Positions 14,953 through 31,196 of a DNA stretch of 64,000 bases are shown in pieces. The position numbers and the translations under genes are program-made. The DNA is taken from the NCBI RefSeq assembly GCF_000382365.1, contig NZ_KB908216.1, positions 124,675 to 188,674 of the forward strand, read 5' to 3'. The stretch is from Pannonibacter phragmitetus DSM 14782 (GTDB lineage Bacteria > Pseudomonadota > Alphaproteobacteria > Rhizobiales > Stappiaceae). Under the pieces are notes generated by a model, which saw only the letters and a program-made list of their open reading frames with translations, was not told the origin of the DNA and did not search any database. Each line of letters begins with the position of its first letter. The first letter of the stretch is position 1.

Positions 14953-16303
14953 CGGAACGGCCCACGGCCGTTTCCGCCTGCCCCCGGCCGGCGCAAGGGT
15001 GCAGCCCGCATGTCCGCAGGAGCGCAGTCCCGCCTGGCTGATGGCGGTTTATGCGATCATCTTTGGCACGCTGATCTTCAACCTCGGCCTTGCCTTCGTC
15101 AACACGAGGGTGATGGGCATCTCGCAGAACCATGTAGTGCTGAGCGAGCTGCTGCTGACCGCCTGCGCCCTGCTGCTGGCCATGACGCGCCGGGCGAACC
15201 TCTATGTGGTCATCGGCATCTATCTGGCCTACATGCTGATGATCATGGCCCTGCGCGGGGTCATTGACCCCAAATCGGTGCGCGATGCGCTGGTGCCGGT
15301 GATCTTCTATTTTCTGGGCCGCCAGATCCATGACATCCGGCAGGTAGACCGGCTGGTGCTCTGGTCGGCGCTGCTCGTCATAGCCACCGGCCTGATCGAG
15401 TACCTGTTCCTCGACCTGTTTCTCCAGAACATCAATATCTTCGACTATTACGTCGCCCGAGGCACGATCACGGCAGACAGCAATTTCCTCGGCGAGGACA
15501 GCCCCCTGTTCCACAGCGGCGTGCGGCTGGGCGGGCGCAATTTCTTTGCCTTTCTTGGTGCCCACCGTGTTTCGTCGGTGTTCCTGGAGCCGGTGTCGAT
15601 GGGCAACTTCGGTGCGTTTCTCGTCATGTGGGCGGTGTTCCGGCAGGACATGCAGGGCCGCCTGCTGCTGTTCGCGCTGGCCTTTGCGGTGATCATTCTG
15701 GGCGACGCCCGCTTCGGCATGTTCGTGTCGCTGAGCTTCTTCCTCATTGCCCCGCTCAACCGCATCACCCCGCGCGCCGTGCTGGTGGCAGCGCCCATCC
15801 TGATCGTGCTGCTGCTCATCATTTATGCCGCTGCCAGCAACAGGCTCGGCTGGGACGACACGCTGACAGGCCGCTGGCTCTACTCTGGCCAGTTGCTGAT
15901 GAAGCTGGACTGGAAGGGCATTCTCGGCATTTCCACCATGGAGACCTATCTGTCCGACAGCGGCTATGCCTTTGCCCTGTTCCAGACGGGGGCCATCGGC
16001 CTTCTGGGCCTTTGGGTGCTCTATGTCTACGCTCCGGCGGCATCGGATGCCGGCTGGCGCTTCAAGGTGCTGATGGTCGCCTACATCTGCCTGCTGATGA
16101 TCGTGTCCTACTCGCTGTCGACCATCAAGACCGGCGGCCTGCTCTGGCTCTGCGCCGGGGCCGCCGATGCCTGGAACGGCAAGCACCCTGCCGGAGCCAG
16201 CCGCCTTGCTCTGCCCGCCCTGTTCCGCCGCAAGCGGCCTCAGCCCGCCGTCACCAGCCGCTGGAGGCTTCCACCCGGCTTCGAGAGAGGCCGCAAGGCC
16301 TGA
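14930..16303 (+). CDS. Wzy-like O-antigen/exopolysaccharide polymerase family membrane protein
   Basis: A 457-residue membrane protein with about ten to eleven helices and one large periplasmic loop between about residues 155 and 205 (containing LGEDSPLFHSGVRLGGRNFF), the architecture of Wzy polymerases. Wzy proteins are poorly conserved in sequence, so the call rests on topology, the loop and context: it overlaps the GumC-like gene and is followed by transferases and a flippase. The N-terminal ~35 residues and the C-terminal ~45 Arg/Pro-rich residues are cytoplasmic. The ATG at 14930 lies inside the upstream gene; an in-frame start nearer residue 35 cannot be excluded. Confidence 0.75.
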   Translation: MSSLKQPDGTAHGRFRLPPAGARVQPACPQERSPAWLMAVYAIIFGTLIFNLGLAFVNTRVMGISQNHVVLSELLLTACALLLAMTRRANLYVVIGIYLAYMLMIMALRGVIDPKSVRDALVPVIFYFLGRQIHDIRQVDRLVLWSALLVIATGLIEYLFLDLFLQNINIFDYYVARGTITADSNFLGEDSPLFHSGVRLGGRNFFAFLGAHRVSSVFLEPVSMGNFGAFLVMWAVFRQDMQGRLLLFALAFAVIILGDARFGMFVSLSFFLIAPLNRITPRAVLVAAPILIVLLLIIYAAASNRLGWDDTLTGRWLYSGQLLMKLDWKGILGISTMETYLSDSGYAFALFQTGAIGLLGLWVLYVYAPAASDAGWRFKVLMVAYICLLMIVSYSLSTIKTGGLLWLCAGAADAWNGKHPAGASRLALPALFRRKRPQPAVTSRWRLPPGFERGRKA

Positions 16304-16317
16304 GCGGCCTTACATCA

Positions 16318-17475
16318 TCAAGCAAGTTTCAAGGCATCCGCATAGAGCCGTTCATAGGCGGCTGCCGTTCCGGCCCAGCCGTGCTGTGCCGCCGAGGCAA
16401 TAGCGGCCTGACGCTGAGCCAAAGGATCGGCCATCAGCACCGCCCATACCTCTTCCACAGCCTGCGCCGCCTTGACCGGATCGCCAAAACCTGCGAGGCG
16501 GACCATCGGATGCTTGCGGGCAAGAGAGACAAAAGCCGTGTTGGGCTCCACCACCGGCAGGAGACCGGCACTCAGCCCCTCGATCATGGCAACGCCGAAG
16601 CCCTCGTAATTCGAGGCGCTGACGAACAGGCTGCAACGGCCCATCACCTCGCGGATACGGGTGTTGGACGGATTGCAGTGCAGCGACACTGCAGCTTCAA
16701 GCCCGCGCTCCGCGATCATGCCGCGCACATCCGCCTCGCTCCAGTCCGAGCCGCTGCCCGCGATGTGCAGATGCCACGCACCGTCTTTTGCAAGCAGCAC
16801 CTTCATCATGTCGAGCAGCGCATCGAGCCGCTTGTTGTGAGAGAAGCGGCCGATGGTCATCAGCCCCTTCACCGGCACGGGCGAGGCTGCGCCGCCGAAT
16901 TTTTCCAGATCTGCCGCATTCTCGATCAGCCGCACCCGCGAGGGCGCAATGCGGGAGAAGGTCGCCAGATCACTTTCGCTGCAGCAGGCAATGCCCCGGT
17001 AACGGCTGGCGGAAAGCCGCGTGACGGTGTTGAACCAGAGCGTCTTCAGCCGCTTGTGATCGGCAGTATGGAAGAAGCCGCCATGCGTGGTCGCCACCAT
17101 CGGCGTGCGGCGGAAAGGCGATGTCCAGGCAAGGCTGTCGAAGAAGAAATCGACCGCATGCACGTGGATGAGATCGGCTCCCGCAATCTCAGCGAAAACG
17201 GACGGTGCCAGCGGATAGCGCGGCGAGCCCCGGAACGGAATGCGCCGCACCTCGAAGCCGTCGATCGTCTCCTGCGCAGGCAGCAGACGGTCCGGTTCGA
17301 TGAACAGGCGGTTCAGCGTCACCACCTTCACCCGGCCAAAGCGCCCGGTCTGACGGCCTGCGAGATTGCGCACCACATCCTCCAGCCCGCCGATCATCGG
17401 GTAGAACTGGCGCACCACGTGCACGATGGTCTTGCCTGCGAAAGGCGGGACAGGCTCGGGAAGCTGTGCCGTCAT
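16318..17475 (-). CDS. glycosyltransferase family 4, GumH-like
   Basis: A 385-residue GT-B retaining transferase. N-terminal HVVRQFYPMIGGLEDVVRNLA is the acceptor-side glycine-rich loop of GumH/AceC-like alpha-1,3-mannosyltransferases; THGGFFHT (about 130) and the donor-site segment ASNYEGFGVAMIEGLSAG (about 290, the EX7E motif with both Glu) follow. GIACCSESD lies between. Such enzymes add mannose from GDP-mannose to the lipid-linked disaccharide in xanthan-type polymers; the exact sugar is inferred. The start codon overlaps the stop of the deacetylase gene (ATGA). Confidence 0.88.
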   Translation of the reverse strand: MTAQLPEPVPPFAGKTIVHVVRQFYPMIGGLEDVVRNLAGRQTGRFGRVKVVTLNRLFIEPDRLLPAQETIDGFEVRRIPFRGSPRYPLAPSVFAEIAGADLIHVHAVDFFFDSLAWTSPFRRTPMVATTHGGFFHTADHKRLKTLWFNTVTRLSASRYRGIACCSESDLATFSRIAPSRVRLIENAADLEKFGGAASPVPVKGLMTIGRFSHNKRLDALLDMMKVLLAKDGAWHLHIAGSGSDWSEADVRGMIAERGLEAAVSLHCNPSNTRIREVMGRCSLFVSASNYEGFGVAMIEGLSAGLLPVVEPNTAFVSLARKHPMVRLAGFGDPVKAAQAVEEVWAVLMADPLAQRQAAIASAAQHGWAGTAAAYERLYADALKLA

Positions 17476-18557
17476 GAAGAAGGTCCTGAGGTTGGGCGCG
17501 TATTGACGGCAGGCTCGCCCCAGCCACTGCGCAGGGCACGGAAGACACCATGAGCGCCGCTAAGCGCCTGCGGCACGGCATGAGCGGCGAACTCGCCATT
17601 CTGCCGTGGCCAGAGCCAGCGCGCTTGCGCATGTTGCGGGAAGAGGCAGCCCGGCTCGGTGGTTACCGCGCCACGGAAGCCAAGCCTGCGCAGGATCTCC
17701 GCCTCCCGGGTGCCGCTGATTGACGGCGCGCCATAGGGATAGGCGAACCAGCGGACCTCACGGCCGAGCAAGGCTTCGAGATAGGTCTTGTTGGCGGCGA
17801 TGTCCGCCTCCGCTTCAGGCCCTGAAAGCAGCGCAAGCGCCCGGTGTGTGGTGGTATGGGCACCGATCTCGACAAGCGGGTGCCGGTCGATGGCCTTCAC
17901 CTCTTCCGCTGTCATCGCCAGTCTGTCCACGAGACCCGGCATGTCCAGCCCATGGGCAGCAAAGACATCCGGCAGCAGGGCGGCTCTGGCAAAGTCAGCC
18001 CAGACCCAGGCGGTCATATGCTCCAGCGCCGCCGCCTTCTCAGCGCGGGTACGGCTCTCGATGATCTGGCCCATGGGCTCAATGGCGAGCCTGTCATGAT
18101 GCAATGCCAGTTCGCGCAGGCCCAGCCACCAGGCATTGATGGACCGGTTGAGCATGTCCGTTGGCACGAAGATGGTGGCAGGCGCGCCGTGGCGCTCCAT
18201 CACCGGCAGGGCCAGGTCCACGTTGGAGCGGTAGCCATCATCAAAGGTCAGCGCGGCGAAGGGGCGCGTATCGCCAGCCTCAAGCCGCCGCTGCGCCTCG
18301 TCCAGCGTAACAAACTCCCGGCCCTGGCGCTGAAGTCCGGTCAGGATGGCTTCGAAATCATCGATCCGGCAGCCCTGCCCCAGCGTCTGGGCACTGTCGC
18401 GGACGAACTCGTGGAACATCAGCACCGCGCCGCTGCCGCCATAGCGCCGCCCCACAACGGCATCCAGACCAAGGCCATGCAGAAGGCGCGCGGTTCCCGA
18501 AAGAACCGACGCCCTGATCCTTGCTTTCAGGGGAATGCCGGGCACGACTGGTGTCAT
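17472..18557 (-). CDS. polysaccharide deacetylase (NodB homology) family protein
   Basis: A 361-residue CE4-type protein. The NodB motifs are visible: motif 1 TFDDGYRSN (about residue 103, with the catalytic base and metal Asp), motif 2 GAHTTTHRAL (about 233, the two metal-binding His), and motif 3-like WFAYPYGAPS (about 270). These enzymes remove N- or O-acetyl groups from polysaccharides. No cleavable signal peptide is evident, so it may act on the lipid-linked unit in the cytoplasm or be membrane-tethered. It is upstream of and coupled to the GumH-like gene. Confidence 0.88.
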   Translation of the reverse strand: MTPVVPGIPLKARIRASVLSGTARLLHGLGLDAVVGRRYGGSGAVLMFHEFVRDSAQTLGQGCRIDDFEAILTGLQRQGREFVTLDEAQRRLEAGDTRPFAALTFDDGYRSNVDLALPVMERHGAPATIFVPTDMLNRSINAWWLGLRELALHHDRLAIEPMGQIIESRTRAEKAAALEHMTAWVWADFARAALLPDVFAAHGLDMPGLVDRLAMTAEEVKAIDRHPLVEIGAHTTTHRALALLSGPEAEADIAANKTYLEALLGREVRWFAYPYGAPSISGTREAEILRRLGFRGAVTTEPGCLFPQHAQARWLWPRQNGEFAAHAVPQALSGAHGVFRALRSGWGEPAVNTRPTSGPSS

Positions 18558-18639
18558 GAGGGCCTGTTTCCGTTTCCGATCTGCCGCTGCCAGCTGCTGC
18601 CGTCATCTGAAGGCGACAATGGCATAGCTCTTTTAACAA

Positions 18640-18655
18640 GGGCTTGATCAAGCCC
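18640..18655. promoter_or_regulatory. perfect 16-bp palindrome between divergent exopolysaccharide genes
   Basis: GGGCTTGATCAAGCCC is fully self-complementary over 16 bases. It lies in the ~230-bp region between the deacetylase gene (minus) and the next GT4 gene (plus), preceded by CTTTTAA and followed by a repeated TTTACCGG, and could be a shared operator. Confidence 0.45.
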
Positions 18656-18787
18656 GCATTTACCGGAGCGTCAGATCCGGCCTTTACCGGTTGCGTATTC
18701 GTGTCTGCTATGTGGCCGGCCGACCTTACGTTTCCTCAAGACTCCTCAGCTATCAAGGACGAACCGCAACGACGACGAGCCCAGACT

Positions 18788-20020
18788 ATGCGCATCCTGA
18801 TGGCCTGTGCCGCCTTCCCCCCCAACCTGCCCGGAGGAGCCCAGACGTCCTCCTTCATGCTGGCGAAGATGCTGCAGTCGCAGGGAGCGGATCTGACCGT
18901 CGTCAATGTGGGCGACACGGATGCGGAGGAAGAGGTGTCCGGCATCCGGGTGCACCGGATTGCCAGCCCGAATGTCTATTGGGACTACATGAAGCGCAAG
19001 GCTGGCTGGAAAAAGCCGGTCTGGCATGCTCTGGAGAACGGCAACCCCTTCGCCTTTTCGGCCATGCGCCGGCAGATTGCGCGCACGCAGCCGGATCTGT
19101 TTCTGACCGTCAGTATCGAGAACATCAATGTGGCGAGCTGGGCAGCGGCGAAAATGGCAGGCCTGCCTGTGGTGCATACGGCCTTCAATTCCTTCCTCAT
19201 CTGCTGGAACTCGGTGATGCAGAAGCGGTCGGAGAATTGCGCGCGCCAGTGTACCAGCTGCAAGCTGACCTCTCTGGGCAAGCGCGGCTTCACCCGCTTT
19301 GTCGACGGGGTGGTGGGCGAATCCCAGGACGTGCTGGACCGCCACCGGCTGGAGGGCTATTTCCCCAACGCCGAGATGCGCCGCATCCCCGCAGTCCTGC
19401 CCGGACTGCAGGCCTCTGCGCCGCGCCCCTTCCCGCAAGGACGGCCGCTGCGGGTTGGCTTTCTGGGGCTGCACAGCCACTTCAAGGGACTTGCCCATCT
19501 CGCCGGTGCCGCCCGCCTGCTGGCGGATGACCGCAGCATCGAGTTCCACATCGCCGGAGAAGGCGCCTCGCGGGACAACTACGCCGAAGAGGTCCGCGCC
19601 CGCTTTCCTCAGCACAATACGGTGTTTCACGGTTGGGTGAAGGCGGACGAGTTCCTTGCAGGCATCGACGTTCTGGCCTATCCGTCCATCGGGCGCGAGG
19701 CCTTCGGCCGGTCATCGATCGAAGCCTTTGCCCATGCCATTCCTGTCATTTCGACCAATATAGGCGGCGTGGCCGAAAACATCGTAGATGGGGTCAATGG
19801 GTTCCATGTTCCGCCGGCCGATGCGGCCGCCCTCAAGGAGGCAATCCTGAAAACTGCTGCTTGTGCAGACCGCTATGCCGCGCTGAGTGCAGGCGCGCTG
19901 GCTTCTGCCCGGACCTATCTGCCTGAGGTGATCGGACCGCAGTTCAGCGGCTTCCTGGACCATGTCCGCAGGCGCAAAATGGCGGCCCTTCCGGTGCTGA
20001 CAGAGGCCGACGCAGAATGA
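18788..20020 (+). CDS. glycosyltransferase family 4 with Cys-rich insertion
   Basis: About 410 residues. ATG 18788 is chosen because the protein then begins with MRILMACAAFPPNLPGGAQ, the normal start of this GT-B subfamily; upstream in-frame codons do not look coding. A cysteine-rich insertion (CWNSVMQ, then ENCARQCTSC, about residues 137-158) could bind a metal and is seen in some exopolysaccharide GT4 enzymes. The donor domain has FHIAGEG, VLAYPSIGREAFGRSSIEAFA (EX7E) and GGVAENIVDGVNGF. The stop overlaps the flippase start (ATGA). Confidence 0.87.
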   Translation: MRILMACAAFPPNLPGGAQTSSFMLAKMLQSQGADLTVVNVGDTDAEEEVSGIRVHRIASPNVYWDYMKRKAGWKKPVWHALENGNPFAFSAMRRQIARTQPDLFLTVSIENINVASWAAAKMAGLPVVHTAFNSFLICWNSVMQKRSENCARQCTSCKLTSLGKRGFTRFVDGVVGESQDVLDRHRLEGYFPNAEMRRIPAVLPGLQASAPRPFPQGRPLRVGFLGLHSHFKGLAHLAGAARLLADDRSIEFHIAGEGASRDNYAEEVRARFPQHNTVFHGWVKADEFLAGIDVLAYPSIGREAFGRSSIEAFAHAIPVISTNIGGVAENIVDGVNGFHVPPADAAALKEAILKTAACADRYAALSAGALASARTYLPEVIGPQFSGFLDHVRRRKMAALPVLTEADAE

Positions 20021-21393
20021 ATGCGCTTCGCCAGCTGCTGTCCCGCGTCAATGTGAAGGAATTTCTCTGGTCGCTGGTCAGCCGGCTGGCCTCGCCCGTG
20101 CTCAGCTTTTCCGTTCTGCTGATGGCCAGCCGCATGCTGACCATCGAGGAATACGGTCTCTACAACTTCCTCTTCTCTGTTGGTTCGTCGCTGGGCCTTG
20201 TTCTGGTGCTCGGCCAGAACGTGCTGCTGCTCAAGCATTACCGCAACGCCGGCAATCCGGAGGATGCGCCCGGCAACGCGGCCCTCTTGCGGATGAATGC
20301 GGTCTGGCTTGCCTGCGGCGCCCTGTTCCTGGCGGCCGCCACGGCCCTCATCTATCCGTTCCGGCAGGGTCTTGAGCTGCATTATCAGGCCCTGCATGTG
20401 GCCTTCGTGTTCGCTGCGGTTTTTTCCGTCAGCGAGTACATGCAGTATTATTTCCGGGTGAAGGGCAATGTCGGGCTGGCGCTGACGCCGCGCGAGAACA
20501 TCTGGCGCATCCTGACGCTTCTCTGCTTCCCGTTCTTCACCTGGACCGGCTTCATGGATTCCGGTGCCAGGGCGATGGAGATCACCACGGTGCTTCTGGT
20601 GCTGGTGGTTGGCTATCAGGTGCTTCGCATGCTGGCTCTGGAAGGCCGGGGCTTCCTGCGGCAGACGCACATGGCAGGCGGCAGCAGCCAGAAGCGGGAA
20701 TGGACGCAGGAAAGCCTGTTCTTCACCGCCAACAGCTTCTTCGTCTCGGCCTCGCTCTATCTGGAAACCATCCTCATCGGCATCTTCCTGAGCCTTGAGG
20801 CCGCCGCATTCTATTTCGTAGCCTTCCGCCTTGCCGCGCTGCTGATGCTGCCCGTCACCATCATCGACACCGTCGGCGTGCCCATGGTTTCTGCAAAGCT
20901 GCAGGAGCGGAACACCGCCGGAGCGCAGTATCTGATCTCCATCCTCTCCGCCGCCAGCTTCACCGGAACCCTGCTCGCCTATGTGTTCATGATGCTGATC
21001 GGCAAGTTTGCGCTCGGATTGTTCGAGCCGAGCTTTGCCGGGCATTTCAATGTTCTGGCAATCCTGTGCCTGCTGCCGGTGCTGCATGCCTTCTTCGGGC
21101 CCGGCACCAACCTCATGATGATCGGCGGCGGCGAGCGTTACTTTCTGGCCATGCGGTCGGTCGCCTTTGCCGTCTATATCGGCGCGCTTGTACTGGCCGC
21201 CCCGGTCTATGGCATGGCCGGGATTGCGGCCATCGGCACGCTGCACAGCGTTGCCGTGCTCTATCTCTGCCGCAACTGGTCGCTGAAGCACATGGGGGTG
21301 GACAATATGGCCAGCACCATCATCACCGTGCTGCGCAACTGGCGGCAGGGCAGCGTGGCAGGCGCGCCCCCTGGCCGCAAGGACGGGCAGTGA
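20017..21393 (+). CDS. Wzx-like polysaccharide flippase / oligosaccharide transporter
   Basis: A 458-residue membrane protein of the MVF/PST superfamily with about twelve helices. It begins with a short amphipathic segment and LWSLVSRLASPVLSFSVLLMASRMLTIEEYGLYNFLFSVG, where LTIEEYGLYNF is the typical post-helix-1 motif of Wzx proteins. It would flip the lipid-linked repeat unit to the periplasm for the Wzy-like protein. Its start overlaps the upstream transferase gene by ATGA and its stop overlaps the GH5 start by TGATG, so the three are translationally coupled. Confidence 0.88.
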   Translation: MNALRQLLSRVNVKEFLWSLVSRLASPVLSFSVLLMASRMLTIEEYGLYNFLFSVGSSLGLVLVLGQNVLLLKHYRNAGNPEDAPGNAALLRMNAVWLACGALFLAAATALIYPFRQGLELHYQALHVAFVFAAVFSVSEYMQYYFRVKGNVGLALTPRENIWRILTLLCFPFFTWTGFMDSGARAMEITTVLLVLVVGYQVLRMLALEGRGFLRQTHMAGGSSQKREWTQESLFFTANSFFVSASLYLETILIGIFLSLEAAAFYFVAFRLAALLMLPVTIIDTVGVPMVSAKLQERNTAGAQYLISILSAASFTGTLLAYVFMMLIGKFALGLFEPSFAGHFNVLAILCLLPVLHAFFGPGTNLMMIGGGERYFLAMRSVAFAVYIGALVLAAPVYGMAGIAAIGTLHSVAVLYLCRNWSLKHMGVDNMASTIITVLRNWRQGSVAGAPPGRKDGQ

Positions 21394-22547
21394 TGGCAGG
21401 GCGCGCAGCGGCCGGGCCTGCGCCCGCAAGGCTCATTGCCGGACTTCTGTCCGCCCTCTTGTGCCTGCCTGCGGCCGCCCCCGCATCAGCCCAGACCCTC
21501 GCCTGCCTGCGCGGCGCCAATGTGGCCGGGGCAGAGTTTGGCGATACGGTCGGCAAGCTCGGCACCACCCATTTCTATCCGACGCAGAAGACCCTCACCT
21601 ATCTGGCCGGCAAGGGCATGAACATCGTCCGCTTCCCCTTCAAATGGGAGCGGCTGCAGCCAGAGCTTTACGGGCCGCTTGATGACCGGGAACTGACGCC
21701 GCTGCTGGCAAGCGTTGCCATGGCCCGGCAGATGGGCTTCACCGTCATTCTCGACCCGCACACCAACGCCCGCTTTGCCGGCAAGCAGATCGGCTCGCCG
21801 GAGGTGCCAGCCGCCGCCTTCGTGGATTTCTGGCGCCGCATGTCCGCCTTTCATGCGGGCGACCCACAGGTGATGTTCGAGCTGCAGAACGAGCCGGACT
21901 ATATGGATGCCGCCTTCTGGCTGCCCTCCGTCAATGCGGCCATCGCGGCGATCCGGGAAAACGGCGCGGACAACATGATCCTCGTGCCCGGCACCATCTG
22001 GACCAGTGCCTATCACTGGTTCGCGGAGCAGAACGGCGGCAGCAATGCTGAGGTGATGACCGGCGTCATTGATCCTCTGAACAATTTCGCCTTCGACATC
22101 CACCAGTATCCCGACCACGATTTTTCCGGCACCAACCGCACCTGCCCGGCAACGGACATGGCGATTGAATCCCTCAGCCGGGTGACGGACTGGCTGAAGG
22201 CCACCGGCAGCCGGGCGCTGCTGGGCGAATTCGGCGGCACCGCCAGCCCGGACTGTCTCGACGCCATCGGCCGCATGGCCGGTTTCGTCAATGACAACCC
22301 GGACACCTGGATCGGCTGGACCTACTGGGCCGCCGGTGACTGGTGGGGCGACTATCCGCTCTCCATCCAGCCCGATGACAATGGCATCGAGCGGCCGCAG
22401 ATGCGGGTGGTGCAGCGCTATATCCTTGATCCCGTGACCGGGAAGATCCCGGCCTGCGCCTCCCTCGCCCCGGCAGGCGCGTGGCAGCTGCGCGGCCCGG
22501 ACGGGAACCAGAAAGGGGCTGGTTCCGCCGATGCCCCCGCACGCTGA
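21393..22547 (+). CDS. secreted glycoside hydrolase family 5 (cellulase-like) protein
   Basis: A 384-residue secreted protein. A signal peptide (residues 1-33, ending PASA) precedes LACLRGANVAGAEFGD. GH5 hallmarks are GMNIVRFPFKWERLQPE (about 72), VMFELQNEPDYMD (about 165; Glu of NEP is the acid/base), DIHQYPDHDFSGTNRTC and RALLGEFGG (about 275; Glu is the nucleophile), then IGWTYWAAGDWWGDY. GH5 enzymes in export clusters trim or edit the beta-1,4 polymer in the periplasm, as BcsZ does for cellulose. An ATG inside TGATG with the flippase stop sets the start. Confidence 0.92.
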   Translation: MAGRAAAGPAPARLIAGLLSALLCLPAAAPASAQTLACLRGANVAGAEFGDTVGKLGTTHFYPTQKTLTYLAGKGMNIVRFPFKWERLQPELYGPLDDRELTPLLASVAMARQMGFTVILDPHTNARFAGKQIGSPEVPAAAFVDFWRRMSAFHAGDPQVMFELQNEPDYMDAAFWLPSVNAAIAAIRENGADNMILVPGTIWTSAYHWFAEQNGGSNAEVMTGVIDPLNNFAFDIHQYPDHDFSGTNRTCPATDMAIESLSRVTDWLKATGSRALLGEFGGTASPDCLDAIGRMAGFVNDNPDTWIGWTYWAAGDWWGDYPLSIQPDDNGIERPQMRVVQRYILDPVTGKIPACASLAPAGAWQLRGPDGNQKGAGSADAPAR

Positions 22548-24371: not shown

Positions 24372-26819
24372 TCAAGTCTCGTAGCCCACACCTGCCAGCG
24401 CATTGACCGCCGAGACCAGACCGCGCGGTGCCGCATCACCCGGTGCAGAGGCTCTGCGCCTGAGGCGAATGCGGCGTGGCTCACCGGGGGAAAGGTGGAA
24501 CCAGTTGTCTTCCGCGATGAAGCACGGATCCTCCACATGCAGGCTTTCGGCAAAGCGGCTCGCCGTCACCTCCAGCACCCAGCTGCCGTCCTCGCATCTC
24601 TCTACCGCCACCGTCAGACCCAGATCCTGCGGCGGCAAATTGCGGCCTGCGGGGAATTGGAACGCCTCGCTGAGGCATTCGCCCGTCTCCGCATCTGTGA
24701 GGCGCAGCACCGTGACCGAATGCGGCAGCGGGCCGAAGCGGTAGGCATAGGTGATGTCGAAGAAACTGCCGATGAGATCAACCGCAGGAATGATCTGCCC
24801 TGACCGGGCGGCAAGTTCCATCTCGCGGGCGGCACTCAGCACTGGCACATGGCCATCCCGCAGCGCCTGCAAGGTGAGCTTCACCCGGCGCGGCTCTGCC
24901 GTCTCATTGAGAAGATGAACATCAAGGCCGTTGGTGCCCTCATCCAGCGCCAGCACCTGAAGGGGGCGCAGCACATGGGCCAGGGCCTGCAACGCAGGCT
25001 TGGGCTCACCGCCCGCCGCGATCAGACCCCAGCCGCAGCCGGGGGCAAGATCGCTCAGCGCCAGAACCAGCGCTCCCCGGCAGGAAGAACCAATCCTCCG
25101 CCACTCGGCAAAGGTCTCTGCCATCACTGCGCCGCTGACCGCGCGGGACAACATGAGGTAGCGCGCCGGGTCTTCCGCCGCGAGTGCCTGTGGGTCAACC
25201 CGGTAAAGCTCCCTGACATAATGATCCCGCACATCCGCGAAATCCCAGTCTGCACCCCGGTCTTTGGGAGCCATCGCCTTCCAGTCCGCATCTGACGGTT
25301 TGCGGCCTGCAAGGCCCGCGTCATCCGGCAGATTGGCGAAGGCAAGGCACTCTCCGGCAAAGCGCACATTGGCACGGCGGGCATCTTCCAGCGGGCGGCG
25401 GTAAGCCCCGACGCCATAATAATGGCCGATGCCCTCCCCCGGATAGAACGGCAGGCTGCCGCCGGAGGGGGAGTTGCGCACGAAGGGAATGCGCGGCGCC
25501 TCTTCCGCCGCAAGGCGCGGCAGCAACTCTCCCGAAAGCGGGCAGGCGCGCCGCTCTGCGGGCAAGCCCATCATCGCCGCCTGCTGATGCATTTCGCTGC
25601 CGCCGCACAACACGGTGAGGCAGGGATGCGGGCTGAGACGGGCCAGCGCCTGCCGCGCCTCCACCTCGACGGATGCAGCAAAGGCCTCATCAGCCATCGG
25701 ATAATCGAAATTGGCGAACTGGAAATCCTGCCAGAGCATCAGCCCCAGTTCATCGCACAGATCAAGCAGATCATCGCTAGCATAAACGCCCAAGCCCGGC
25801 ACGCGGATCATGTTGAACCCGGCAGCCACGGCTGCTTCCAGATGCGGGCGGCAGGCCTCGCGGTCATCACGCAGCGCCAACAGGTCAGCACTCGTCCAGA
25901 CCGCGCCACGGGCAAAGACCGGCACGCCATTGAGGACCAGGCCGAAGCCCTTGCCATCCGCCCCCCGGTCCGCCCCGATGCGGCGGAAGCCGGTGCGGCC
26001 AAGCCGGGTCTCAAGGCCGTCCTGCTCCAGCACCACGTCATGCAGAGCCGGGGTGCCATGGGTGGCGGGCCACCAGGGGGCCACGCCGGGCAGGTGGAGA
26101 TCGGCCGTGAATCTGCCAGAGCCGGTTTGCTTCAGCTCCGCAGTGTGACCGGCGCAGCGGATCATAGCCCCCGCCATCTCCGCCAGTCCCCGCAGACTGA
26201 CTGTCAGATGACCGGCGCCATCTTCATCGAGCAGCGCAGAGATGGCTTCCACCTGCGGCGCATCTGCATCCACCTTTTGGATCCAGACCGGCTTCCACGG
26301 CCCCACGGCCTCAATCTCCGGGCACCAGCCGGGCATGTGGCCAAGCAGCGTCGTGCGGATGCCACGCAGCGCGGGCTCATCAATGAGCATGGTTTTCCAG
26401 CGGGCGCGCGGCAGCTTGCGGGCAAGCCGCCCGGTCAGCGCCCGGAAGACGAGAACGAGCGTGTTCTGCGCCTGCGCCTCCACCTCAACGGCGTAGCTTC
26501 GGAACATGTTGTCCGTCTCCAGCACGCAAGTGCCGTTCCACCAGACCTCGCAGAGCGTTGCCAGCCCTTCGAAGATCAGCTGGTGACGGCCGGGTTGGAC
26601 GGTGACCTCGGCGCTGTAACAGATATCCCGGTCCTGCAGCGGAGTGGGGGCCGCCGGATCAAACCGCCCTGCCTGCGCAAGGGATTCCGCCGCCGTTCCG
26701 GGCACGGGCGCGGGAATGCTCTCCAGCTCCGCCAGTCCCTCAAGCGTTGCAACGGTCCCAACCGGCAGCACCACCATGCGCCAGTCTGCGGTGAGAAGCT
26801 TGCGCCCTGCCATCTTCAT
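24372..26819 (-). CDS. glycoside hydrolase family 2, beta-mannosidase-like
   Basis: An 815-residue GH2 protein: N-terminal jelly-roll (ICYSAEVTVQPGRHQLIFEGL, VWWNGTCVLETDNMF, about 65-110), a beta-sandwich, then a TIM barrel starting near VFARGAVWTSADLL and GFNMIRVPGLGVYASDDLLDLCDELGL. WQDFQFANFDYP is typical of exo-beta-mannosidases. The acid/base site reads CGGSEMHQQ, with Ser before Glu where most clan GH-A enzymes have Asn; the nucleophile segment reads FAGECLAF. No signal peptide, so it is cytoplasmic. It probably acts on mannose-containing oligosaccharides, possibly linked to the adjacent exopolysaccharide genes. Confidence 0.82.
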   Translation of the reverse strand: MKMAGRKLLTADWRMVVLPVGTVATLEGLAELESIPAPVPGTAAESLAQAGRFDPAAPTPLQDRDICYSAEVTVQPGRHQLIFEGLATLCEVWWNGTCVLETDNMFRSYAVEVEAQAQNTLVLVFRALTGRLARKLPRARWKTMLIDEPALRGIRTTLLGHMPGWCPEIEAVGPWKPVWIQKVDADAPQVEAISALLDEDGAGHLTVSLRGLAEMAGAMIRCAGHTAELKQTGSGRFTADLHLPGVAPWWPATHGTPALHDVVLEQDGLETRLGRTGFRRIGADRGADGKGFGLVLNGVPVFARGAVWTSADLLALRDDREACRPHLEAAVAAGFNMIRVPGLGVYASDDLLDLCDELGLMLWQDFQFANFDYPMADEAFAASVEVEARQALARLSPHPCLTVLCGGSEMHQQAAMMGLPAERRACPLSGELLPRLAAEEAPRIPFVRNSPSGGSLPFYPGEGIGHYYGVGAYRRPLEDARRANVRFAGECLAFANLPDDAGLAGRKPSDADWKAMAPKDRGADWDFADVRDHYVRELYRVDPQALAAEDPARYLMLSRAVSGAVMAETFAEWRRIGSSCRGALVLALSDLAPGCGWGLIAAGGEPKPALQALAHVLRPLQVLALDEGTNGLDVHLLNETAEPRRVKLTLQALRDGHVPVLSAAREMELAARSGQIIPAVDLIGSFFDITYAYRFGPLPHSVTVLRLTDAETGECLSEAFQFPAGRNLPPQDLGLTVAVERCEDGSWVLEVTASRFAESLHVEDPCFIAEDNWFHLSPGEPRRIRLRRRASAPGDAAPRGLVSAVNALAGVGYET

Positions 26820-26862
26820 GCGCCCGGGCCTTCATGGGCAGCCTGCAGTTTCGCTCCCCTTC

Positions 26863-26910
26863 CTCTCCCCCCTTGAGGGGGAGATGCCCCCGTCAGGGGG
26901 CAGAGGGGGG
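26863..26910 (+). repeat. rhizobial-type intergenic palindromic element, left copy
   Basis: A GC-rich palindromic unit: CTCTCCCCCCTTGAGGGGG, GAGATG, then a CCCCCGTCAGGGGG hairpin and CAGAGGGGGG. The same unit occurs inverted at 26961-27011. Elements of this look are frequent in intergenic DNA of rhizobial genomes. Confidence 0.7.
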
Positions 26911-26960
26911 TAAACAGTCTACCGGCTTGATACGGCAGGCATTCGTTTGAGGAAACGCTG

Positions 26961-27011
26961 CTCCCCCCCTCTGTCTGCTGGCGCAGACATCTCCCCCTCA
27001 AGGGGGGAGAG
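26961..27011 (-). repeat. rhizobial-type intergenic palindromic element, right copy (inverted)
   Basis: Read on the minus strand it begins CTCTCCCCCCTTGAGGGGG and GAGATG like the left copy, but its inner hairpin is GTCTGCGCCAGCAGAC instead of CCCCCGTCAGGGGG, so the pair differ only in the variable loop stem. Together the two units fill the gap between the DUF1839 and GH2 genes. Confidence 0.7.
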
Positions 27012-27029
27012 GGGCGCTGCGGCCAAACG

Positions 27030-28040
27030 TTATGCAACTTCGTCACCCGCATCACCACAAACCGCCGCCAGCCCCGCCGCCAGCTCATCCCAGGCATCTG
27101 CGGCAGGTGCCAGGGCTGGCGTCAGCCGGTCGAAGGACTTGCGCATCACCGCGCGGGCGAGCTGGAACTGGACGGATTTGGCGCAGGAGGAGATGGCCTT
27201 CGCGTGAGCCGAAAGCGGCGCCAGCCCGCCAAGCTGCGCGTGGTTGGCGGAAAGCCAGTCAAGATGCGCTGCGAACAGCTCGAAATTCGCACCCAGCTGG
27301 CGCAGGGTATTGAAGGCATAGAGGTGGAAGAAGCCGAAAGGCCGTTCCGCAATCGCCTCAACCTGCCCGGCAAAGATAGCCGCAAAGCCACGCACCGGGT
27401 TGGCCTCGGGCCGGGCTGCAACATGGCGGGCAAGGATCTTCGCGGCGCGCCGCGCAATCTCCGGCTTCTGCGGCAACGCAGCCGGGAACTTGACGAATTC
27501 GGTATAGGGCAGCAGCGGCAGGGCGTCCGGTGCGGCGTTGCGATGGAAGATGCCGTCGAAATCCTCTCCCTCCAGCCGGTGCAGGCCAAGGTTATGGAAA
27601 TAGTCCATCTGCCGGGCTTCAAGGTCGAGCCGGTTGATGGCCACCGTCGTCTTGCCATGCTCCTTGCGGTAGGCGGTGCCCTGCGTGTCCGGCAGGAAGA
27701 AGCTGTCCAGCTCGACAAGGCACAGGCGCCCGCGGCGGATCTGCTCTGCCACATGCAGCTCCACCCGGTCGTAGATGGCGAGTTCCGTCACCCGCAGACC
27801 GAAGAGCGCCTCCAGATCCTCCAGCGGCACCTTGAAGAAGGTGAACTGGTCGCCCTCGAAGTCCTGCGTGATGGCAAAGCCCAGCGCGGCCTCCGGCGGC
27901 AGGCCCAAAGAGGCCAGAACCTCGATCCATATGTCGAGATAGCAGTTGGTTTCCGGCCAGTCGCGCGACAGGTCATGCAAGGCATGGCGCTGATAGGTCT
28001 CGGGCGAAAGCGCCGGAAACACCTTGTCCGTTACGGCCAT
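27030..28040 (-). CDS. DUF1839 family protein, putative aminoacyl-carrier-protein acyltransferase
   Basis: A 336-residue DUF1839 protein. The frame is open upstream but ATG 28040 starts one base after the stop of the ligase gene, so that start is chosen. No biochemical function is established. I see a Cys33 in PETNCYLD at the start of a helix, then DSFFLPDT (about 112), His128 in RKEHGKTTVAINRLD, and Asn136/Asp139, an order matching papain-like folds such as the BtrH N-terminal domain, which moves an aminoacyl group from a carrier protein. The C-terminal ~120 residues look helical. It is the last gene of the carrier-protein operon. The transferase role is my inference. Confidence 0.82.
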   Translation of the reverse strand: MAVTDKVFPALSPETYQRHALHDLSRDWPETNCYLDIWIEVLASLGLPPEAALGFAITQDFEGDQFTFFKVPLEDLEALFGLRVTELAIYDRVELHVAEQIRRGRLCLVELDSFFLPDTQGTAYRKEHGKTTVAINRLDLEARQMDYFHNLGLHRLEGEDFDGIFHRNAAPDALPLLPYTEFVKFPAALPQKPEIARRAAKILARHVAARPEANPVRGFAAIFAGQVEAIAERPFGFFHLYAFNTLRQLGANFELFAAHLDWLSANHAQLGGLAPLSAHAKAISSCAKSVQFQLARAVMRKSFDRLTPALAPAADAWDELAAGLAAVCGDAGDEVA

Positions 28041-28041
28041 C

Positions 28042-28950
28042 TCAGCCCCACAGCACCTTGCGCACCCCGGCCGGCCAGCTGCCGGTGTCGAGGCCGTGGT
28101 GAGCAAACAGCGCCAGCGCCACACGCTCAAGGCCAAAGCCGACGCAGGCCGTATGCGCCACTTCGCCGTCCGCCGTGGTCAGGCCCCAGGTCTTGCCGAA
28201 ATGGTCCTGATGGTAGTTGAAGGACAGGCACGCGGTCGGCTTCTCGGTGGAGGTCACCGGCACCAGCAGCTCGAACTTCAGGTTCTGGTCGCGCTGGTTG
28301 TTGGAGAGCATGCGCCCGGCCCGGCCAAAGAACGGGTCATTGGCCACATCGATGGCGACCGGCAGGCCGACGCTGGCAATCAGCTCCTGCCCGCGCTCCA
28401 TCCACGACTGGCGGAAGGCCATTACTTCGTCCGGCGTGCCCATGCGCACATATTCGCGCATGCGGAACAGCTGCATGCGCGCCGGATCCTTCGACGGCTC
28501 ATGACGGAAGCAATAGGACTGAAGATCGAAGATGCCGCCGCGCTCCGGCAGCTGCCCGCGCCGCGCCACGGTGGGATAAAGCGGATAGCAGGCGGCCGGC
28601 GTCAGCACGATATCCGTTGCCGCCTGCCCCCTGGTCCAGTCGCCGCCCTCAGTCATGCATTGCAGCAGGTTCACATGGTCCAGCTCGCAGCCGCAGAAAC
28701 TGTGCACGGTTCCAGCCAGCTGCGGGAAGCTTTTCATGTAGCCCGAGCCCTCGAAGTGAGCCCGGTTCATGCCGGGCGGAAACCGGATGGCTTCGGCATG
28801 CTGGTCCGCACCGAAGGCCGACACAAGCGCGTCAAAGCGCTGGATTACATCCTCGAACACCCCGCCCCGGCCATAAAGGCCGTCAACGCCCGTGTCGATG
28901 AGATGACCGGCGGCAAACAGCCGGTCGAGAAGGGAAGCCTGCATGTCCAT
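28042..28950 (-). CDS. amino acid--[acyl-carrier-protein] ligase (class II aaRS-like)
   Basis: A 302-residue homolog of the catalytic domain of atypical seryl-tRNA synthetase that lacks the tRNA-binding arm. Class II motif 2 is [25 protein letters not shown]-like at about residue 150-175, and motif 3 is [12 protein letters not shown] (about 275). The Cys before motif 2, the Glu within it and the Cys in HTACVGFG match the zinc ligands of this family. Characterised rhizobial homologs activate glycine or alanine and load it on a dedicated carrier protein, not tRNA. A GGGGG site precedes ATG 28950. The operon supplies the carrier protein. Confidence 0.92.
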
Positions 28951-28981
28951 GTATCCCCCGGAAATCGCTTTTTGAAATGTC

Positions 28982-30166
28982 TCAGCCGAGAAGGCTGGTG
29001 TCCTGCCGGTTCATCAGCAGAAGCGTGGATGTGTTGCCGAGAATGCGGTCGTTGGAAATCATCAGCTGCGCCGAATGGGCATCGCGCAAGTGACGGCCAA
29101 GGCTGTAAGGCGTACCATTCTTGTAGCCCATGATGCCGCAGACCAGCAGGCAGTGATTGATGATGTCGAGGATCGTCTGCGAAGAGGCGATCTTCACATT
29201 GTTCATGGAGACGGCAAAGCTGATGGAGGACAGCCGCGTCTCGTCCTCCCGCGCCGCCTCATACTGCTGCAGCGCCGCCAGAATGTTGGACTTCACCAGC
29301 TGCAGCAGGTTGGACGCTTCGGCCAGGCGCAAGGCGCCGGGCGGCACGGTGCCGGGGCTCTTGCGCGCTGCGGCCTTCACGAAGGCCTGTGCCCGCGCAA
29401 AGGCATCGGCTGCAATGCCGAACCACACGCCGCTCCACAGGATGTGCGAATAGACCAGCATCGACTGGGCCGCGATCTCGGCAAAGGGCTTGGGCAGGAT
29501 CTGACAGGCCGGTGCCTCGCCCTTGAACAGGAACCCGTCCGAGCGGGTGCCGCGCATGCCCAGCGTGTCCCAGTCATGGGTCTTGTCGAGGCTGTACTGG
29601 CCTTTCAGAAACACGGTCATCACCTGGTCGGACGGCGCGCTGTCGGCCTTTGCCCGCGAGGTGACAAGGATGGCATCCGCTGCCTCCGCATAGGAGATGA
29701 CCGTCGCGTCCTTCTCAAGCCGGCAGATCCCGTCTGCCACCTCAATGGCGCAGATGGAGTTGCGCAGGTTGCCGCCAATGCCACCTTCGGTGGTGGCGGA
29801 GGCGAGCAGAAGCTGTTCATCCGCGATCCGGCGCATGAAGCCTTCGTGCCACGCATCGCCCTGTCCGTGCGCCACAAGGCTCGACACCTTGATCTGGTGC
29901 ATGGCGAAGATCATGCCCGAAGCCGAACAGGCCTGACCGAGAACGGAGCAGACTTCCGCCAGTTCTGCGGTGGAGGCGCCTTCGCCGCCGAGGGCTACCG
30001 GAATCTGCAGACCCAGCAGACGCTCCGCCCGCATGGCATCCAGCGCCTCCTGCGGGAAGCGGCCGGAAGCGTCCACATCATCCGCATGGGCGCCAGCCAC
30101 GGCCGCAGCGCGCCTTGCACGCTCAGCCAGGGCAAGGGCACGAACCGGCCGCAACTCGTTCATCAC
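28982..30166 (-). CDS. acyl-CoA dehydrogenase family protein of the aminoacyl-carrier-protein operon
   Basis: A 394-residue flavoprotein of the acyl-CoA dehydrogenase superfamily: an N-terminal helical domain ([23 protein letters not shown]), the central beta domain ([18 protein letters not shown] at about 115, the flavin-contact segment) and a C-terminal helical bundle ending [23 protein letters not shown]. Its place between a carrier protein and an aminoacyl-carrier-protein ligase suggests that the substrate is a carrier-bound aminoacyl group rather than acyl-CoA (inference). The start overlaps the carrier-protein stop by ATGA. Confidence 0.88.
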
Positions 30167-30411
30167 GCCACCTGTCCGGCTGTCAGCGAAGCAACAGCCG
30201 CTGAAATCGCCGCGATCGAGGCGAAGGTCTTGCGGTTCAGCAGGGTCTCGGGAAATTCGATATCGAAGGCATCTTCCAGCCCCAGCATCAGCTGCACGGA
30301 AGCAAAGGACGACAGGCCCGCTTCGTAAAGGTCGTCCTCATCGCGCAGCGTATCGACGGGCACAGGCAATCCGCCATGCCGGGAAATCAGGTCACGGATC
30401 GTAGCAGTCAT
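30163..30411 (-). CDS. acyl carrier protein (aminoacyl carrier protein)
   Basis: An 82-residue four-helix carrier protein. The phosphopantetheine site is in DLYEAGLSSFASVQLM, with the modified serine most likely Ser35 (GLSS in place of the usual GxDS). The following LGLEDAFDIEFPETLLNR is the normal recognition helix and loop. ATG 30411 is chosen by alignment to family length; the frame is open farther upstream. It is the first gene of the four-gene operon and overlaps the dehydrogenase gene by ATGA. Upstream (30412-30662) is the promoter region, AT-rich around 30515-30600. Confidence 0.92.
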   Translation of the reverse strand: MTATIRDLISRHGGLPVPVDTLRDEDDLYEAGLSSFASVQLMLGLEDAFDIEFPETLLNRKTFASIAAISAAVASLTAGQVA

Positions 30412-30662
30412 TGAATTATCAACCCCAAACAACGCCAGCCATACCCTCTCGCACCGGGCCAGTGATGGAACTTTGCGGCGAGGATAGGCAATCGCAGGGA
30501 TCATGGCACGCGCAAAGATACAATACAGTTAAATCAAGACTGCAATTCATCCGTTTTCATTAACCCGCGATAAACTTACTCTGCGTTCTTAGGGTCTTTT
30601 CCCTTAGGAACCCGCCAAGGCAGCATGCCCGCATGGGCTTGCGGGCAGAAGGCCGGCATGCC

Positions 30663-31196
30663 TCATCCCAGCATCCGGCGCAGCGTGTCATCCCGCAGCA
30701 CGAAATGATGATGCAGCGCCGCTGCGATGTGCAGGAAGACGAGGGCGGTGAAGGCCAGCCCCATCGCCATATGCAGGCGGAAGAGACTGGCCGCCAGTTC
30801 CCGGTCCTGCCCTGTCAGCGGCGGCAGGGTGAAGAGGCCGAAAACCTCGATAGACGCGCCATAGGCGGAGGTCGCCACCCAGCCGATCAGCGGATTGAGC
30901 AGCACAAACCCATAAAGCAGACCATGGACGATGCCCGCCGCCCGGCGCTGCCAGGCAGGCATGGCATCTGGTAGAGGCTGCGGCGTGTGACGCAGCCGCC
31001 AGACGAGGCGCGCCAGCGTCAGCAGCATCAGCACCACACCCACCGAGCGGTGAAAGTCGAACAGGCTGTTCTGCAGGCTGCCGGGACCAACACGGATCAT
31101 GACAAACCCGGCCGGCACCATCGCCAGCACGAAGCCAGCCGTCACCCAGTGAAACAGGCGCGCCGTGCCGCCATAGCGGAATGCGTCATCGCTCAT
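30663..31196 (-). CDS. cytochrome b561
   Basis: A 177-residue four-helix membrane cytochrome b of the bacterial CybB family. Heme ligands are expected in ARLFHWVTAGFVLAM (His about 16), LFDFHRSVGVVLMLL (about 50), and LFRLHMAMGLAFTALVFLHIAAALHHHF (about 140-155). It would shuttle electrons between quinol and a periplasmic acceptor such as superoxide. ATG 31196 has a GAGAGG site; the longer open frame upstream is not coding. It is divergent from the RibD-C gene and appears monocistronic. Confidence 0.9.
   Translation of the reverse strand: MSDDAFRYGGTARLFHWVTAGFVLAMVPAGFVMIRVGPGSLQNSLFDFHRSVGVVLMLLTLARLVWRLRHTPQPLPDAMPAWQRRAAGIVHGLLYGFVLLNPLIGWVATSAYGASIEVFGLFTLPPLTGQDRELAASLFRLHMAMGLAFTALVFLHIAAALHHHFVLRDDTLRRMLG

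Follow-up and report, generated by a model that had tools for sequence, protein, structure and literature searches.

Which reaction consumes the amino acid that a stand-alone ligase attaches to a carrier protein? The question is raised by a compact gene unit of Pannonibacter phragmitetus DSM 14782, located in a stretch of 64,000 nucleotides (contig NZ_KB908216.1, positions 124,675 to 188,674; referred to as the window, whose own numbering is used throughout), where a carrier protein, a homologue of acyl-CoA dehydrogenases (ACADs) and an amino acid:[carrier protein] ligase are encoded next to a protein of the DUF1839 family. Loading of the amino acid onto the phosphopantetheine of the carrier has been reported for homologues of the ligase, and a 2022 review, in its accessible text, still gives the role of this attachment as unknown (PMC9437257). 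The unit may serve to acylate a sugar-containing acceptor by way of the carrier protein, with DUF1839 as the predicted aminoacyl transferase, a reading to which we give close to an even chance. Its members in the window are the following.

30163-30411, minus strand: stand-alone carrier protein of 82 amino acids, predicted phosphopantetheine site Ser35
28982-30163, minus strand: flavoenzyme of ACAD fold, 393 amino acids
28042-28950, minus strand: amino acid:[carrier protein] ligase of class 1 (see below), 302 amino acids
27030-28040, minus strand: DUF1839 protein (PF08893), predicted aminoacyl transferase
24372-26819, minus strand: GH2 beta-mannosidase-like protein, 815 amino acids
22531-24285, plus strand, convergent to the unit here: tandem alpha/beta hydrolase, an accessory member with similarity to TIGR03100/TIGR03101 below cut-off

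A first-pass annotation of this DNA had placed four packed minus-strand genes, in this order, between 27030 and 30411, and coordinates and profile matches agree: the ATG of the ACAD homologue overlaps the stop codon of the carrier protein, and the ligase stop is followed directly by the start of DUF1839. Described as a complete small pathway, these four leave out the GH2-like gene, 210 bases past DUF1839 on the minus strand, and in most loci the tandem hydrolase as well. For the carrier protein, matches are obtained to the PP-binding domain PF00550 (34 bits) and NF005480 (112 bits, cut-off 72), and the attachment serine proposed at first pass, Ser35 in GLSSF, is in place (the motif reads AGLSSF) and kept in 90 of 90 carrier sequences; domain and serine together qualify it as an aminoacyl carrier. 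Its closest solved structures are the aminoacyl carrier protein 4h2w_C and Atu2571 (2jq4), both at E ~4e-29. The ligase passes the equivalog threshold of NF005479 (516.4 bits, cut-off 357), its relatives in the PDB being 4h2w_A (E 5e-102) and Bll0957 (3mey_A, E 3e-97).

Conservation of the unit and two classes of ligase

Conservation of the unit was followed in 92 loci, comprising the best 80 of 562 from genome contigs (mostly Rhizobiales) and 12 from another search, of which two (L075 and L100) look like one genome. By tblastn with the window proteins, the genes for carrier protein, ACAD homologue, ligase, DUF1839 and GH2 occur together in 88 of the 92, and the grouping is thus not due to chance; taken singly, DUF1839 is present in all 92, the ACAD homologue in 91, the carrier protein, the ligase and GH2 in 90 each, and the tandem hydrolase in 59. 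The four incomplete loci are L022, which lacks the ligase, L095, which lacks GH2, L027, which lacks the carrier protein and whose contig begins within the ACAD gene, and L096, a second DUF1839 unlinked to the unit. All six genes run co-directionally, in the order carrier-ACAD-ligase-DUF1839-GH2-hydrolase, in three Azospirillum replicons and one Mycetohabitans replicon, while a Caballeronia plasmid carries the first five; a tblastn search finds DUF1839 in 59 of 72,556 plasmid records. Two loci show local irregularities: in Roseibium denhamense (L022 8756-13524), carrier protein, ACAD homologue, DUF1839 and GH2 are present and the ligase is missing between the second and third of these, and in another genome (G704, C1 2515620-2516545) the match to DUF1839 is split in two, through breakage of the gene or an error in sequencing.

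The families were then counted in an order sample of 297 genomes, a phylum sample of 299 (some genomes being in both) and a class sample of 240. In the order sample, DUF1839 and the ligase hereafter called class 1 occupy the identical 49 genomes, in each of which they are adjacent on one strand with 31-458 bases between the matches. The ligase is found at E <= 1e-50 in 64 of these 297 genomes, 49 at 63-100% identity (class 1) and 15 at 47-52% (class 2), and DUF1839 is absent from all 15 class-2 genomes. The phylum sample repeats the split: DUF1839 occurs in 12 genomes and the ligase, at E <= 1e-20, in 36, with identities of at least 60% exactly in the 12 DUF1839 genomes, 47-50% in nine and 27-36% in 15. 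In the class sample, DUF1839 occurs in two genomes. Co-occurrence across genomes, which the first-pass annotation proposed to trace, is thus strict for DUF1839 and the class-1 ligase; its suggestion that DUF1839 may be the missing transferase cannot be extended to all such ligases, because the class-2 ligases come without DUF1839.

In nine fetched class-2 regions, an ACAD homologue (42-48% identical to the window protein) lies beside the ligase in every case, and the carrier protein is matched in five, with an unmatched small frame seen by eye in two more; tblastn finds no DUF1839, GH2 or tandem hydrolase in these nine. What the two classes share is therefore a core of flavoenzyme and ligase, in most cases accompanied by a carrier protein; DUF1839 and GH2 are a class-1 addition, a putative "delivery module" set upon this core. 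This split tells where DUF1839 should matter and where it should not. A third and distant group of ligases (L147-L152) is 27-36% identical to the window ligase, with many members of about 400 amino acids; in the six regions fetched for it, tblastn gives no match to the ACAD homologue, DUF1839 or GH2.

Fold and active site of DUF1839

The DUF1839 protein matches PF08893 with 425.3 bits against a curated cut-off of 22.5. An AlphaFold2 model built from 38 aligned sequences is confident, with a predicted local distance difference test (pLDDT) score of 88.7 and a predicted template modelling (TM) score of 0.89. Searched against the PDB with Foldseek, it gives 19 matches at E <= 0.001 (eight CtaG, eight CcbD and three AziU3/U2), which cover 327-371 alignment columns with TM-scores of 0.53-0.59 by query length; the top match, at a best E of 1.1e-7, is AziU3/U2, from azinomycin biosynthesis. 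CcbD and CtaG, papain-like amide synthases that deliver carrier-bound acyl groups to amines, are matched over the full length at E 8.5e-6 to 1e-3, with query-normalised TM-scores of 0.53-0.58. CcbD forms the amide of carrier-bound proline with an amino sugar by a cysteine ping-pong mechanism via an acyl-cysteine (PMC12945683), and CtaG, from closthioamide biosynthesis, is proposed to move an acyl group from one carrier to another (PMC6772006). AziU3/U2, termed a novel fold in print (PMC11168924), forms an aziridine by sulfate displacement (PMC12559475); since its product is an aziridine, the fold alone is no proof of acyl transfer.

The structure prediction thus favours the first-pass proposal of a transferase as regards the fold and the cysteine; membership in the BtrH family, with which that proposal compared it, is rejected by sequence, as DUF1839 has no match to the BtrH_N profile PF14399 at E <= 0.01. 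The 50 Foldseek matches listed include no BtrH for comparison. By sequence profile, the only match in the PDB is a weak one to 5hu4 (E 0.039). A match to PF07400 IL11 (E 3.5e-4, under the cut-off) is taken as chance.

Cys33, His128, Asn136 and Asp139, from which the first-pass annotation had assembled an active site, are all present, and the first two are conserved across the aligned loci. In an alignment of 93 rows (the 92 loci and the window), Cys33 is found in 92, His128 in 93, Thr131 in 91 (with one Ser and one Ala), Thr132 in 92, Asn136 in 87, Asp139 in 91, His149 in 93, Arg296 in 93 and Arg300 in 92. In the model, Cys33 opens the helix 33-44, as does the cysteine of CcbD and CtaG, Thr131 stands at the start of the strand 130-139 and His149 ends the strand 144-149. 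The order of a histidine followed by an acid that is usual in CcbD and CtaG is not found; by position and spacing, Thr131 and His149 would take these places, at a distance of 18 residues compared with 16 between the histidine and the aspartate of CtaG (C11A, H128A and D144N in the titles of PDB variants). The triad first proposed therefore has to be revised: Asn136 is rejected, being kept in only 87 of the 93 rows and unsuitably placed on its strand, and the likely triad, from modelled position, fold and the published description of DUF1839 as a papain-like fold with a C-(T/S)-H triad (PMC10318531), is Cys33-Thr131-His149. It agrees with that description, Thr/Ser and His being exchanged in order, and residue 131 is Thr or Ser in 92 of the 93 rows. 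The invariant His128 could still assist catalysis.

Flavoenzyme, glycan surroundings and the candidate pathway

While gene order, co-occurrence, fold class and conservation are shown by computation, the reaction, the oxidation, the acceptor and the parts played by GH2 and the hydrolase are inferred. A route of four steps can be proposed from these elements. The ligase would adenylate a small amino acid and load it onto the phosphopantetheine of Ser35, as its proven homologues suggest. The flavoenzyme would then oxidise the carrier-bound aminoacyl group, with oxygenation at N or C-alpha somewhat likelier. As the fold suggests, the acyl group would next pass to Cys33 of DUF1839 and from there to an amine, in the manner of CcbD, with Thr131 orienting His149. 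In the fourth and weakest step, GH2 and the tandem hydrolase may act on the glycoside acceptor or on the product, by preparing, trimming or recycling it. The link to a CcbD-type fold supplies a concrete reaction, residues and an assay.

The second step depends on the nature of the flavoenzyme, which has the fold of an ACAD (PF02771, 41 bits). At the sequence level, its PDB relatives comprise ACADs together with the nitrososynthases DnmZ and KijD3, and the profile search is headed by an ACAD (7p98); a fold comparison puts ACADs, DnmZ, KijD3, TdsC, DszC and MsuC on a level (Foldseek, with a model of pLDDT 79.7 whose residues 370-393 lie under 50). The glutamate base of a true ACAD is not found in an alignment of 91 rows (89 loci plus two entries of the window, as in the GH2 alignment below) at either of the two known ACAD base positions: position 376 is Gly in 81 rows, Ala in six, Ser in two, Leu in one and Thr in one, and position 239 is Ser in 87, Ala in three and Cys in one. 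HMMER alignments place Ile369 rather than residue 376 at the base position, which is again not Glu. As a yardstick, Escherichia coli CaiA has Glu at the place of 239, where the flavoenzyme family has Ser, and none at that of 376. His240, Asn371, Arg373 and Asn377 are invariant in the 91 rows.

Because the usual Glu is missing, oxygenation is at least as likely as dehydrogenation, and we lean slightly towards it, as the 2010 prediction discussed below did. The oxidation of the carrier-bound aminoacyl group suggested at first pass can be kept as a proposal; the reading of the enzyme as a dehydrogenase is doubtful. An ordinary dehydrogenase with another base, giving a carrier-bound dehydroamino acid or imine, is nevertheless a serious alternative, if somewhat less likely than not: ACADs are level with the monooxygenases by fold and highest in the profile search, and a displaced base is possible because an acid, Asp or Glu, stands at residue 372 throughout the 91 class-1 rows (it is Asp in seven of eight class-2 rows and His in L141). 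The lack of Glu at both base positions and the ranking of DnmZ and KijD3 alongside the ACADs speak against it.

The acceptor is the subject of the fourth step. The GH2-like protein matches PF22666 (58 bits) and beta-mannosidases in the PDB (best E 4e-36), and its two catalytic glutamates, Glu409 and Glu490 as placed by alignment to 5n6u, are both present in 91 of 91 rows; no obvious signal peptide is seen by eye. The tandem hydrolase looks like hydrolases 1 and 2 from exosortase-A systems joined into one protein (TIGR03100 and TIGR03101, the exosortase-A-associated hydrolases, both matched below cut-off), and this likeness may hint at chemistry shared with exosortase-A loci. Two further features lie beside the unit, the second directly adjoining it.

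21336-22547, plus strand: GH5 cellulase-family protein (PF00150, 148 bits), an occasional neighbour found in 20 of the 92 loci
12940-22547, both strands: polysaccharide locus with Wzz/GNVR, two glycosyltransferases, a deacetylase, a flippase-type biosynthesis protein and GH5 (by Pfam; the protein at 14930-16303 has no match)

Among the neighbours of 14 chosen class-1 loci of the 92 (106 proteins; the top 25 of 128 families), alpha/beta hydrolases, glycosyltransferases, GNVR/Wzz, polysaccharide biosynthesis and GH5 lead; none of these is among the top 25 of 70 families for the 64 proteins neighbouring nine class-2 loci. The open reading frames of the fetched regions were called mechanically, spurious frames included. 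A direct scan nonetheless finds Wzz near three of the nine class-2 units (L140 1051-2493, L143 2160-4349, L144 15687-17858), so that polysaccharide neighbours do not distinguish class 1 from class 2, and the class-2 pathway may also touch polysaccharides. In an alternative reading, a small soluble amine or glycoside serves as acceptor and a secreted metabolite results, the linkage to surface polysaccharide loci reflecting the local history of some lineages. The six-gene runs of Mycetohabitans and A. lipoferum, which have no annotated polysaccharide assembly genes adjoining, and the precedent of CcbD, which makes an antibiotic, argue for it; GH2 in 90 of the 92 loci, the glycan-biosynthesis neighbours in the window and the class-1 sample, and Wzz near the three class-2 units argue against. 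It is a genuine possibility, if on the less probable side.

Between DUF1839 and GH2, at 26872-27002, lies a strongly self-complementary element with the 15-base motif CTTGAGGGGGAGATG, of which the genome holds 117 copies (58 forward, 59 reverse); most of those listed form inverted pairs with a spacing of about 115 bases. The element has the look of an interspersed palindromic repeat that inserted into the operon. A promoter and terminator scan of 26600-30700 gives no signal exceeding chance.

Cys-less copies, rival roles and known systems

In four genomes (Cupriavidus metallidurans CH34, Cupriavidus sp. EM10, C. campinensis and genome G477) the DUF1839 protein of the unit lacks Cys33. These copies read NRHIDLW in place of NCYxDLW, have Arg for Lys130, Ser (two) or Ala (two) at 131 and Cys (three) or Ala (one) at 132, and keep His128 and His149. 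Each of the four genomes also carries an intact second DUF1839 (NCY, HVKT), located 3.8-7.5 kb off on the opposite strand in the three named Cupriavidus records and on a separate contig in G477 (loci of the pairs: L155, L158, L159, L101 and L096); Cupriavidus plasmid records have two DUF1839 places in four of four, three of which were read. In a phylogenetic tree, the Cys-less copies form one clade (support 100/100) and the intact copies another (100/99), with matching internal branching. For the Cys-less copies, the ratio of nonsynonymous to synonymous substitution rates (dN/dS) lies at 0.07-0.27 and for the intact ones at 0.13-0.49, rough values given that dS is 0.5-1.2 and synonymous sites are near saturation. 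With ratios this low, the Cys-less copy looks like a retained protein rather than a decaying gene.

The loss of Cys33, the purifying selection and the presence of an intact copy suggest that the two proteins form a heteromer. This is a fair inference because AziU3/U2 is a two-protein complex and the active site of CcbD includes residues of the adjacent monomer (PMC12945683). The Cys-less partner of Cupriavidus is a naturally occurring variant on which the catalytic model can be tested. A fuller version of the proposal would have an oxidised aminoacyl group (such as N-hydroxy or imino glycyl or alanyl) installed by an oligomeric, swapped Cys-Thr-His transferase, with an obligate pair of Cys-bearing and Cys-less subunits in Cupriavidus; taken as a whole it is rather doubtful. 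Such oxidised aminoacyl groups are not known from bacterial glycoconjugates.

Several observations weigh against an acylation pathway with DUF1839 as its transferase. The TM-scores of the fold matches are just 0.53-0.59 with a root-mean-square deviation of ~6-7 Å, the order of the catalytic residues differs from that of CcbD and CtaG, and the top match is an aziridine synthase and no acyltransferase; added to these are the Cys-less copies themselves. The acidic residue 372 and the failure of Foldseek to separate the flavoenzyme from dehydrogenases bear on the oxidation step. As to the unit and its acceptor, the Roseibium denhamense genome gives no ligase match (in a search that had no positive control from that genome), GH2 is missing from the vicinity in L095, Wzz lies near the three class-2 units, and few polysaccharide genes, or none, adjoin the class-1 unit on replicons of Azospirillum, Mycetohabitans and Caballeronia.

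Of the other roles open to DUF1839, that of a hydrolase (thioesterase or amidase), releasing or editing a carrier- or glycan-bound amino acid, is unlikely. In its favour, peptidases and amidases are numerous in the papain-like superfamily (PMC10318531), and two partners, GH2 and the alpha/beta hydrolase, seem to be degradative enzymes; however, no protease or amidase is found among the 19 significant fold matches, and the carrier protein and ligase are biosynthetic, the ligase being strictly linked. A cyclisation or elimination on the oxidised aminoacyl group in the manner of AziU3/U2, without acyl transfer, is very improbable: the best fold match and its chemistry of sulfate displacement, and the Cys-less copies under purifying selection, which show that a role of the family can persist without Cys33, are outweighed by Cys33 in 92 of 93 rows, by the intact copy that accompanies every Cys-less one in the four genomes and by the lack of a sulfotransferase in the unit.

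With acyl transfer by DUF1839 as the preferred role, the unit can be compared with known systems. In AlmE-AlmF-AlmG and Dlt, a ligase loads an amino acid on a carrier and a transferase decorates the cell surface; unlike the DUF1839 unit, they use membrane acyltransferases of other folds and have no flavoenzyme. AziU3/U2, the best fold match, is a two-protein complex and an aziridine synthase, unlike the predicted transferase. CtaG has the fold of DUF1839, with variants at Cys11, His128 and Asp144 by PDB titles, and its acceptor is carrier-bound. CcbD and LmbD, the lincosamide condensing enzymes, share with DUF1839 a full-length fold match, the cysteine nucleophile, a carrier-bound amino acid as donor and, as predicted here, an amino sugar as acceptor; they differ in their Cys-His-Glu triad and in sequence (11-13% identity to DUF1839 in structural alignment), and the accessible text on them mentions no ligase resembling a tRNA synthetase.

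The closest precedent is a prediction. The neighbourhood of Atu2574 in Agrobacterium tumefaciens, as described in Biology Direct in 2010, holds a paralogue of the aminoacyl ligase, an acyl carrier protein, a redox enzyme, a conserved uncharacterised protein, a glycosidase and liposaccharide genes; in a note added in proof, Atu2574 was predicted to form an amide with the amine of a cell-surface sugar, and the redox enzyme to act, probably, by monooxygenation (PMC2922099). To judge from the order of the genes and from the carrier protein's tag, Atu2571, Atu2574 is presumably the DUF1839 protein. Among the papers listed from literature leaving out most subscription journals, no experimental test of the pathway was found for the ligase, the carrier protein or Atu2571-2576, and none of the text available there gives a phenotype for Atu2571-2576. 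By name, DUF1839 was found in the same literature only in the Journal of Biological Chemistry report of 2023, where it is suggested to take part in acyl-CoA-dependent glycan processing at the cell wall (PMC10318531). In its accessible text this report, unlike the present analysis, does not mention the link to ligase and carrier protein, while the 2010 prediction, as far as its accessible text goes, came without the fold, triad, genome count, ligase classes and Cys-less copies described here (PMC2922099). The idea of a transferase has thus been in print since 2010 and the fold since 2023; what is new by comparison is the exact co-occurrence, the two classes of ligase, the near-constant GH2, the fold match to CcbD and CtaG and the Cys-less twin.

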